From an uncultured bacterium (GTDB lineage: Bacteria > Spirochaetota > Leptospiria > Leptospirales > Leptonemataceae), in assembly GCA_937928085.1 (NCBI GenBank), contig CALFVU010000006.1, forward strand, positions 1 to 64,000: a stretch of DNA of 64,000 bases, given 5' to 3'. A program made the position numbers and the translations under genes. The notes below the pieces were generated by a model. It saw only the letters and a program-made list of their open reading frames with translations. It searched no databases and was not told the origin of the DNA. Below are positions 9,043 through 13,355 of this stretch, in pieces. Within the stretch, counting starts at the first letter, position 1; every line of letters begins with the position of its first letter.

Positions 9043-10179
9043 ATGAAACCTCAAAACAAATTCATTTCATTGGTTTTGGTTTTGACCAGTGTTTTAAGCA
9101 TTGGTTGTGGTGGTAAAGGTGGTGGCAAAGTCGGTTTGGCCTCTGATGCTGCTCAAAAAGTTTATGTGGCGCCTGGAGATAAAGACGAGGTGTATCTTTT
9201 TACTTCTGGTGGGTTTAGTGGACAAGTGGGTGTACATGGAATTCCTTCTGGAAGACTTTTTAAAATTATCCCAGTATTTTCTGTTTGGCCAGAAAATGGA
9301 TATGGCTTCGATGAAGAAACCAAAGGTATGTTGATGACTTCTCATGGTTTTATTCCTTGGGATGATAGTCATCATCCTGAAGCTTCTATGACTAAAGGAG
9401 AACAAGATGGGCGATGGTTATTTATTAATGGAAATAATACACCAAGAATTGCAAGAATTAGTTTATCTACTTTCGAAACAGTAGAAATCATCGAGATACC
9501 TAACAGTGCGGGTAACCATGCATCACCTTTTCTAACTTGGAACACAGAATATTTAATGGCAGCAACAAGGTTTTCTGTTCCCATTCCCCAAAGAGATATT
9601 CCTATCGAAAGCGCCAAAGAGGGCAAGTTTAATGGAACTATCACTATGGTAGCTGTGGATAAAAATACAGGAGCAATGAGTATCAAAGTTCAAGTTTTGG
9701 TACCGGGTTTTAATTACGATTTATCTGCATGTGGAAAGAATCAATCCGGTGATTGGTGTTTTTTTTCTATGTATAACACAGAACAAGCTTATGATCTTTT
9801 AGAAATCGAAGCATCTAAAAATGACAAAGATTATATTTTAGCTTTTAATTGGAAAAAAACAGAAGAATGTGTAAATCAGGGTAAGGGAAAAGAGGTTCCA
9901 AGTGTCTATTACAGAAATTATAAACCTCATGCGAAGCCAGCGATTTCTGAAAGAAAAACAACAGTAAGAATGATGGAACCTAAAGATTGTCCAGGGATAA
10001 TGTATTTTTTACCCACTCCCAAAAGTCCCCATGGGGTGGATGTGGATGATACGGGAGAATATATCGTAGGTGGTGGAAAATTAGCAACAGTAATACCAGT
10101 ACATTCTTTTAGTAAATTTGTAAAAGTTAAAGATGATCCTCAAAATCATATAATGAAAATTATGGATATTCCAGTTTAA
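9043..10179 (+). CDS. nosZ: Nitrous-oxide reductase NosZ, N-terminal part (gene frameshifted near 10176)
   Basis: Lipoprotein-type signal peptide 'VLSIGCGG', 'DDSHHPE' Cu-ligand motif, 'SPHGVDVDDTGEYIVGGGK'; continues in the next ORF in frame -1. Confidence 0.9.
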   Translation: MKPQNKFISLVLVLTSVLSIGCGGKGGGKVGLASDAAQKVYVAPGDKDEVYLFTSGGFSGQVGVHGIPSGRLFKIIPVFSVWPENGYGFDEETKGMLMTSHGFIPWDDSHHPEASMTKGEQDGRWLFINGNNTPRIARISLSTFETVEIIEIPNSAGNHASPFLTWNTEYLMAATRFSVPIPQRDIPIESAKEGKFNGTITMVAVDKNTGAMSIKVQVLVPGFNYDLSACGKNQSGDWCFFSMYNTEQAYDLLEIEASKNDKDYILAFNWKKTEECVNQGKGKEVPSVYYRNYKPHAKPAISERKTTVRMMEPKDCPGIMYFLPTPKSPHGVDVDDTGEYIVGGGKLATVIPVHSFSKFVKVKDDPQNHIMKIMDIPV

Positions 10180-10205
10180 AATACGAATCAACTTTATATG
10201 GCGAA

Positions 10206-10961
10206 GTGGATAAACCTTGTTTGGGACCACTACATACACAGTTTGATGGAAAAGGTAGAGCTTATACTTCTTGTTTTGTTTCTTCTGAAATCGTACAGTG
10301 GGATATAAAAAATTTAAAAGTTTTATCTCGTCTACCCGCATATTATAGTATAGGACATTTAAGTGTAGTGGGGGGACATTCTACTAAACCTTATGGAAAA
10401 TATGTAGTTGCTCTTAACAAAATTACAAAAGATCGATACCTACCAACAGGTATGGAATTAGTACAAAGTGCTCAATTATATGATATTAGCGTAGATCCTC
10501 CTCAATTATTGTTAGATTTTCCTACAACTGGAGAACCCCATTATGCGGAGATGATTCCAGCGAGTTTGCTTCTTAAAAACAAAATCCAACAGATTCTTCC
10601 ATTAAATGAAAATGATCATCCATATGCAACGAAAAGCGAAAAAGAAGCAAGAGTAGAAAGAAAAGGCAAAGAAGTACATGTTTATATGACAGCAATTCGT
10701 TCTCATTTTAAACCATCAAAAGTAGAAGTCAAGTTAGGAGATATAGTGTATTTTCATGTAACTAATCTGGAACAAGATTTTGATATACCTCATGGTTTTG
10801 CGATTTATGGTGCACCTCTACCTAATATTTTGATTATGCCCGGACAAACAAAAACTTTGGTTTGGGAAGCTAAAAAAATTGGAGTGTTTCCATTCTATTG
10901 TACTGATTTTTGTTCTGCATTGCATCAAGAAATGCAACATTATATTCGGGTATCACCTTGA
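10206..10961 (+). CDS. nosZ: Nitrous-oxide reductase NosZ, C-terminal part with CuA domain
   Basis: 'CLGPLHTQFDGKGRAYTSCF' and CuA motif 'FYCTDFCSALHQEMQHYIRV'; the same frame reads upstream through 'LKYESTLYGEVDKP'. Confidence 0.9.
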   Translation: MDKPCLGPLHTQFDGKGRAYTSCFVSSEIVQWDIKNLKVLSRLPAYYSIGHLSVVGGHSTKPYGKYVVALNKITKDRYLPTGMELVQSAQLYDISVDPPQLLLDFPTTGEPHYAEMIPASLLLKNKIQQILPLNENDHPYATKSEKEARVERKGKEVHVYMTAIRSHFKPSKVEVKLGDIVYFHVTNLEQDFDIPHGFAIYGAPLPNILIMPGQTKTLVWEAKKIGVFPFYCTDFCSALHQEMQHYIRVSP

Positions 10962-11045: not shown

Positions 11046-11648
11046 ATGTTTTCCTTATTAAATCAAAAATTGAATCAAACAAATCGTATACTAGTTTTAA
11101 TAGTGGCTTTTTTAATGTTTTTAGTATATTTTTTGCCTTTATGGGTAATAAACTTAACTGCTCCTCAATACCCCGAAACTTTAGGTATGTATATTTATGT
11201 TAATGATATTAAAGGTAAAACACCATATGATCTACAAAATATTAATATTTTAAATCATTATATTGGAATGCAAAAAATTGCAGCAGATTCTATTCCAGAA
11301 TTACAGTATATGCCTTATATTTTAGGTTATATGATTTTTGGAGCTGTGGTTACTTTTTTTTTTAATAGAGTTTTTATGGTTTTTTTAGGAGTTCTAAATA
11401 CGGTTTTAGTGGGGATCGCAGGAATCTATGATTTTTGGCGATGGGAATATAATTACGGTCATAATTTAGATCCGAATGCCCCTATACAGGTACCCGGCAT
11501 GAGTTATCAACCCCCTTTGATTGGTTGTAAAGAACTTTTAAATATTAATGCTTGTAGTTGGCCCTCTATAGGTGCTTTGTTGTTGTTTGTTGTATTGGGT
11601 ATATTGTTTTGGATATTATATACAGAATTCAATACTCAAAATCGCTAG
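11046..11648 (+). CDS. NosB-like integral membrane protein of nos cluster
   Basis: Hydrophobic ORF between nosZ and nosL; 'ETLGMYIYVNDIKG...NILNHYIGM...IYDFWRWEYNYGHNLDPNAPI' pattern of membrane proteins in clade II nos clusters. Confidence 0.7.
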   Translation: MFSLLNQKLNQTNRILVLIVAFLMFLVYFLPLWVINLTAPQYPETLGMYIYVNDIKGKTPYDLQNINILNHYIGMQKIAADSIPELQYMPYILGYMIFGAVVTFFFNRVFMVFLGVLNTVLVGIAGIYDFWRWEYNYGHNLDPNAPIQVPGMSYQPPLIGCKELLNINACSWPSIGALLLFVVLGILFWILYTEFNTQNR

Positions 11649-11659
11649 GAGGACTATGT

Positions 11660-12130
11660 ATGAAAAAACTATTACCATTTATTATCTTTTTTTTCTTTTT
11701 TTCCTGTACGCCAAAAGCACCTGTAGATATACAAGCTGGAATGGAAGAATGCAGTTTATGTAAAATGAAAATTGTAGATTTAAAGTTCAATGCTCAGCTT
11801 CAAACTACAAAAGGAAAAATTCATCATTTTGATAGTATTGAATGTTTGGTAAAATGGATTGAGCAAAATAAAGATATAGAAATAAAAAATGCATGGGTTA
11901 AAGACTATCCTTCAGGTAAGTGGGTAGAATATAAAAAAGCTTTTTATTTAGTGTCGAAAAACCTGCCTTCTCCGATGGGTGCTTATCTTTCAAGTTATGA
12001 AACTTTAGAAGAAGCGCAAAAGATACAGAAAGAAAAAGATGGTCAAATTCACGAATATAAAGATTTAAGCAATTATTTAAAAAGTTTAAACAAAGATGAA
12101 AAACATCATCATCACCATCATCATCATTAA
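11660..12130 (+). CDS. nosL: NosL-like copper chaperone lipoprotein with C-terminal His8
   Basis: MKKLLPFIIFFFFFSCTP signal; 'CSLCKMKIVDLKFNAQLQTTKGKIHHFDSIECLVKW'; ends DEKHHHHHHHH*. Confidence 0.88.
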   Translation: MKKLLPFIIFFFFFSCTPKAPVDIQAGMEECSLCKMKIVDLKFNAQLQTTKGKIHHFDSIECLVKWIEQNKDIEIKNAWVKDYPSGKWVEYKKAFYLVSKNLPSPMGAYLSSYETLEEAQKIQKEKDGQIHEYKDLSNYLKSLNKDEKHHHHHHHH

Positions 12131-13355
12131 TTTGCTTACACCGATTTATGCAGAGACTTTAAGAGTTTGCACAGGAGCTTGCAAGTATCGAAATTTGCAA
12201 GCTGCTATCGATCAAGCTCCTCCTTATTCCAATATTTTTGTGGAAGAGGGGATCTATATTTTAAGCGAAGAAATCGTTATATCGAAACCTATAAAATTAA
12301 TTGGAAAAGAAAAAAAATCTATCCTTGATGGTAGTAAAATAAAAAATGTAATTAAAATTTCACAGACTTATGATGTAGAAATTACAGGTTTTACAATCAA
12401 AAATAGTGGTTACAGTGATATTCAAGAATTTGCAGGAATTTATATAGAGAAATCGAGCAACTGTAGAATTTATAATAATAGTTTGTTAGATAATACATAC
12501 GGTATTTATTTAGCTTATGTCCAAAAATGTATCATAGAAAACAATCAAATTATTTCAAATGCTATCAACGAAGTTCAAAGTGGTAATGGAATCCATTTAT
12601 GGTATAGCTACGAAAATCAACTAAAAAATAATTTCGTACGAAAACATCGAGATGGATTTTATTTTGAATATTCAGAAAATTTAGTTGTAGAAAATAATAT
12701 AAGTGTTGAGAATATTCGGTATGGAATTCATTTTATGTTTTGTCATAGGGCAAAAATTTTTAATAATCTATTTTTAAAGAATGAAGCGGGGATTGCTCTA
12801 ATGTATTCAAATCGATTAGAACTCAATGCGAATCAAATTCAATATGCGTGGGGAAGAGGATTAAAAGGTTTACTTCTAAAAGATATCAATGATAGCGAAA
12901 TTGTACGAAATATTTTTTCCAATAATACTACTGCATTTTATACTGATAATTCGAATCGAAATAAAATTTATAAAAATCAATTTTTAAGCAATGGTATTGC
13001 TATGGAAATTTTAGGCAATTCATACGAAAATGAAATTTTTAATAATTATTTCGAAAATAATCTTTTTGATGTAGCGACGAATTCGAGAAGTAATCCAAAT
13101 CTTTTTAAAGAAAATTATTGGGATAAATATAAAGGCTACGATCTAAATAAAGATGGATATGGAGATATTTTTTATAGACCTATTACTTTATTTAGTTTTT
13201 GGGTAAGCAAGTATCCTGATATTTTTATTTTACTTCGTTCTCCAATGATTGATTTTTTGGAGACTTTAGAAAAAGTCTTTCCTGTTGTAATTCCCTCCCA
13301 ATTAAAGGACGAAAAGCCTGTTTTGAATAAAAAGATCATTTTAGATACATTATGA
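12096..13355 (+). CDS. nosD: NosD periplasmic copper-processing protein
   Basis: Parallel beta-helix repeats 'NGIHLWYSYENQLKNNFVRKHRDGFYFEYSEN...GIHFMFCHRAKI', in nosLDFY order. Confidence 0.92.
   Translation: MKNIIITIIIINLLTPIYAETLRVCTGACKYRNLQAAIDQAPPYSNIFVEEGIYILSEEIVISKPIKLIGKEKKSILDGSKIKNVIKISQTYDVEITGFTIKNSGYSDIQEFAGIYIEKSSNCRIYNNSLLDNTYGIYLAYVQKCIIENNQIISNAINEVQSGNGIHLWYSYENQLKNNFVRKHRDGFYFEYSENLVVENNISVENIRYGIHFMFCHRAKIFNNLFLKNEAGIALMYSNRLELNANQIQYAWGRGLKGLLLKDINDSEIVRNIFSNNTTAFYTDNSNRNKIYKNQFLSNGIAMEILGNSYENEIFNNYFENNLFDVATNSRSNPNLFKENYWDKYKGYDLNKDGYGDIFYRPITLFSFWVSKYPDIFILLRSPMIDFLETLEKVFPVVIPSQLKDEKPVLNKKIILDTL

Follow-up and report, generated by a model that had tools for sequence, protein, structure and literature searches.

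How can one run of CAT and CAC triplets serve two proteins of a nos cluster, and for which of the two was it made? In the 64,000-nt stretch of DNA analysed here (the window), the 3′ end of nosL reads GAT GAA AAA CAT CAT CAT CAC CAT CAT CAT CAT TAA, and the same bases, taken in another frame, are part of the 5′ end of nosD, ATG AAA AAC ATC ATC ATC ACC ATC ATC ATC ATT AAT TTG. This double decoding had been described in a first-pass annotation and is borne out by the sequence; the interval given there, 12060-12175, encloses both the tract and the overlap. The reading we favor, with a probability of roughly two in three, is that the overlap of the two genes is real, lies on the same strand and was shaped by the His reading, that lengthening of the His tail created the hydrophobic core of the NosD signal, and that the tract has putative roles in export and in copper handling. 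The features concerned are:

11660..12130, plus strand: nosL, copper chaperone lipoprotein of 156 aa (PF05573, CxxCxM motif, end DEKHHHHHHHH)
12096..13355, plus strand: nosD, 419 aa, the periplasmic component NosD of the transporter NosDFY (TIGR04247, PF05048, PDB 7o0y)
12096..12130, plus strand: overlap of nosL and nosD, 35 nt including the nosL stop codon
12104..12127, plus strand: (CAT)3 CAC (CAT)4 tract, encoding His8 for NosL and Ile/Thr for NosD
12105..12128, plus strand: hydrophobic core IIITIIII of the NosD signal, entirely within the overlap
12096..12152, plus strand: predicted NosD signal peptide MKNIIITIIIINLLTPIYA with cleavage before ETLRVC (from hydropathy and cleavage pattern)

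Both genes belong to the families after which they are named. NosL matches the PF05573 profile with 59.7 bits (cut-off 24) and is the single nosL match in its own genome; the gene is preceded by AGGAGG, a Shine-Dalgarno-like sequence. The motif C31-x-x-C34-x-M36, invariant across 18 sequences, places it with the clade II type NosL, of which CxxCxM is the motif (PMC6530538). NosD scores 395.4 bits against TIGR04247 (cut-off 300), also matches PF05048 and resembles PDB 7o0y (E 1.2e-33). The gene order is clade II-like: cytochrome c, nosZ, a 200-aa protein, nosL and nosD are followed by an ABC ATPase at the nosF position and by a 262-aa protein, which matches no family, at the nosY position. The same nos gene order is kept in two congeners and in a further genome, G008.

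Only two in-frame start codons precede mature NosD, ATG 12096 and TTG 12132. That NosD starts at the latter or is not exported, so that the Ile run would never be translated, appears very improbable to us. ATG 12096 has no Shine-Dalgarno match, which would speak for the downstream start, but the same is true for 71% of the first ATGs on the contig. TTG 12132 comes too late for a signal and leaves no hydrophobic core; ATG 12096 is the sole in-frame start that yields a signal peptide, and the congeners begin at the same place. The start proposed in the first-pass annotation is supported, and at the junctions of the two congeners examined NosD likewise does not start downstream of the tract. The best 9-residue hydropathy of the signal is 3.03 inside the overlap (IIITIIIIN) versus 0.94 outside, and the cleavage pattern I-x-[AG]-[EQ], common to both congeners, together with the hydropathy fits an N-terminal Sec signal. 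Export of NosD by the tract-encoded signal is predicted, and the protein would then work together with NosF and NosY.

Was the His or the Ile/Thr reading the earlier one? In this phase, His runs can decode only as Ile/Thr. Six of the seven Ile codons in the tract are ATC, versus 17% ATC on the contig (P 1.5e-4, in a test that assumes independent codons, an assumption broken by tandem duplication). The His codons, seven CAT and one CAC, follow the normal usage (86% CAT on the contig). When the NosD peptide was recoded with the codon usage of the contig, a mean of 1.3 His arose in the NosL frame and 8 His in none of 200,000 draws; most draws of the recoded His tail had 5-7 Ile of 7. Since the Ile codons are biased towards ATC, the His codons are normal and a His run forces Ile/Thr, the tract looks as if it had been His first, with the tail of NosL as the primary reading. 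The polarity is drawn from few points, because the overlap is carried by three species only. Moreover, the tract consists of two near-identical 12-nt units (12104-12115 and 12116-12127), its codons are therefore not independent, and the enrichment of ATC may stem from the repeat and not from selection for His. The codon and overlap statistics were taken from contig C6 (349 kb).

KatS3mg129 and SKW199, the two congeners that carry nos genes, have the overlap in the same phase as here: it is 17 nt in KatS3mg129, with the NosL tail KKHEHHH, and 23 nt in SKW199, with the tail KDEEHHHN. Differences between CAT and CAC among the congeners alter Ile/Thr in NosD. In both, the NosD cores (IVLIYFFFI and LYLLFFLFI) are encoded 3′ of the nosL stop codon, and among the three congeners only the species studied here has the core within the overlap. 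The earlier proposal that the tract supplies the NosD core thus holds for this genome but not for its congeners. In the NosD tree the three form one clade (99/99), with this species outside the other two and G008 outside the clade. In G008, NosL ends in SMHDHGNH and a stop about 44 nt beyond the end of nosL precedes the open NosD frame; consequently, the two genes do not overlap. This short tail favors an expansion of the tract in the lineage studied here, although it does not prove it. Outside the genus, the nosL-nosD junctions that could be placed are tight, slightly overlapping or separated. In four Ignavibacteria loci (L028, L032, L038 and L040) the first ATG of nosD lies 23 nt inside nosL, in the same phase and without a His run, a value that depends on the first ATG being the start and is therefore uncertain.

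From these data we infer the following course of events. The nosD start inside the NosL tail, in the other phase, is an arrangement common to the genus members with nos genes. In this lineage the His tail would have been lengthened, probably via a 12-nt tandem duplication, and a longer tail would automatically have given an Ile-rich NosD N-terminus, because each His codon followed by another reads as Ile/Thr in that frame. In view of the near-duplication, one step may therefore have lengthened both proteins. The Ile-rich stretch would then have become the core of the Sec signal in place of the older one 3′ of the nosL stop, which would have been lost; the longer tract does accompany this loss, since the signal predicted here is 19 residues long, versus 22 in both congeners. 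NosL, in turn, would be exported as a lipoprotein carrying a flexible His8 tail. In an AlphaFold2 model of this NosL the core has a pLDDT of about 97 and the final residues of about 56. Metal binding by the tail is putative but plausible, and it probably binds or holds copper near the CxxCxM site.

A neutral expansion is the alternative that has to be taken most seriously, although we consider it rather doubtful. According to it, H8 is a product of slippage or duplication without value for NosL, and only the NosD signal, for which any hydrophobic run would do, keeps the frame. The 12-nt near-duplication speaks for it, as do the Ile/Thr changes among the congeners, which are tolerable for a signal peptide. 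Most NosL homologues have no His tail: among the 37 surveyed, at least three His in the last 20 residues were found only in this genus and in G008, and a His tail is therefore no general need of NosL; a His run was not seen in any of the NosL tails read outside the genus. On the other hand, both congeners keep 3-4 His in their tails at a NosL identity of only 54-63%, and His-rich tails recur in NosL of G008 and Pseudomonas stutzeri and in a NosL-like protein of G065. Furthermore, the tract is unique in its genome: (CAY)6 occurs in the 2.3 Mb at this site alone, with a chance expectation of about 0.001 sites if the run has 6 units and of 8e-7 if it has 8, and among 315 ORFs of the 349-kb contig nosL alone has at least three His in the last 12 residues.

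It is unlikely, in our view, that an assembly error or gene decay has produced a tract whose length and frames differ from those of a working operon. The suspicion arises from nosZ and from the fact that the data for this species come from one assembly:

9043-10961: nosZ, its frame broken in two by the loss of 1 nt from a T/A run at 10174-10180

The deletion is absent from the congeners, nosZ is intact in G002, G003 and G008, and a second copy was not found in the genome. The frameshift reflects either an ongoing loss of N2O reduction in this lineage or an assembly error; the nos cluster may be non-functional, since the only nosZ is frameshifted. However, nosL, nosD and the next two genes are open and of full length, an error in the tract would need to be a multiple of 3, and the overlap recurs in two further assemblies. 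Equally improbable is a two-way dial in which the number of CAT units tunes the copper capacity of NosL and the export of NosD jointly under selection.

An overlap as such is not unusual: of 189 closely spaced, co-directional gene pairs of the contig, 23 have the first ATG 10 nt or more inside the preceding gene. What is distinctive is the double use, which is seen in this genome only. The first-pass annotation had further suggested that the overlap couples the translation of the two genes. Termination-reinitiation is reported to operate at stop-start distances of about -8 to +6 nt, and long overlaps to be typically uncoupled (Huber et al. 2023, PMC10666635). At -35 nt, nosL and nosD lie outside this window; coupling by reinitiation is thus not supported and that suggestion was dropped. 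Between 11000 and 13400 no terminator-like sites were found, and promoter-like sites are not in excess.

The double-use tract is a variation on known overlaps and known His tails and not a new kind of arrangement. UreE and Hpn are metal-handling proteins with His-rich tails, and like these, and like two Spirochaetota proteins described below (L088 and L093), NosL ends in a C-terminal His run. A close counterpart is NosL of P. stutzeri (PF05573; PDB 7osf/7znq), a lipoprotein of the same family and CxxCxM type whose C-terminus is also His-rich. It ends in SMQHGGMHDHAPNGAHNAHAGH, and a query aligned with PDB 7osf_H across all 64 residues and up to the last one; that tail is a mixture of His, Met, Gly and Ala, in contrast to the His homopolymer found here. 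The long phase-1 overlaps of prokaryotes (PMC10666635) are likewise on the same strand, in phase 1, tens of nt long and in tightly packed operons, but the overlap studied here includes a low-complexity tract able to serve both proteins. In the literature on His tails of NosL or on overlaps of a His tail with a signal, nothing on point was found. The locus is a clear, small case of bacterial dual coding with a simple rule, that a His run becomes Ile/Thr in one sense-strand phase, and a metal-binding tail can in this way turn into the hydrophobic core of the signal that exports the product of the following gene. Similar cases can be searched for wherever an operon has a His-tailed protein before an exported one.

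Of 394 Spirochaetota genomes scanned, nine contain (CAY)6 followed by TAA or TAG. At the 20 such places read, the run closes an ORF of more than 100 aa only in the nosL studied here, in a thioredoxin-like protein (G001) and in a CDF-like transporter (G320), and no overlap with a gene start was seen besides that of nosL. The thioredoxin-like membrane protein (L088) of the congener G001 ends in HGHHHHHHHH, and the protein from G320 (L093), which resembles cation diffusion facilitators, in HHEAHHHHHHH; unlike NosL, neither overlaps the following gene. A search of G001 for nosL and nosD gave no match save a weak, partial one to the NosL family.

One more gene of the cluster deserves mention:

11046-11648: protein of 200 aa encoded between nosZ and nosL, without a match in Pfam or NCBIfam

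It is 78% identical in the congeners and 65% in G008, and judging from its position it may be NosB, the membrane protein of clade II clusters.
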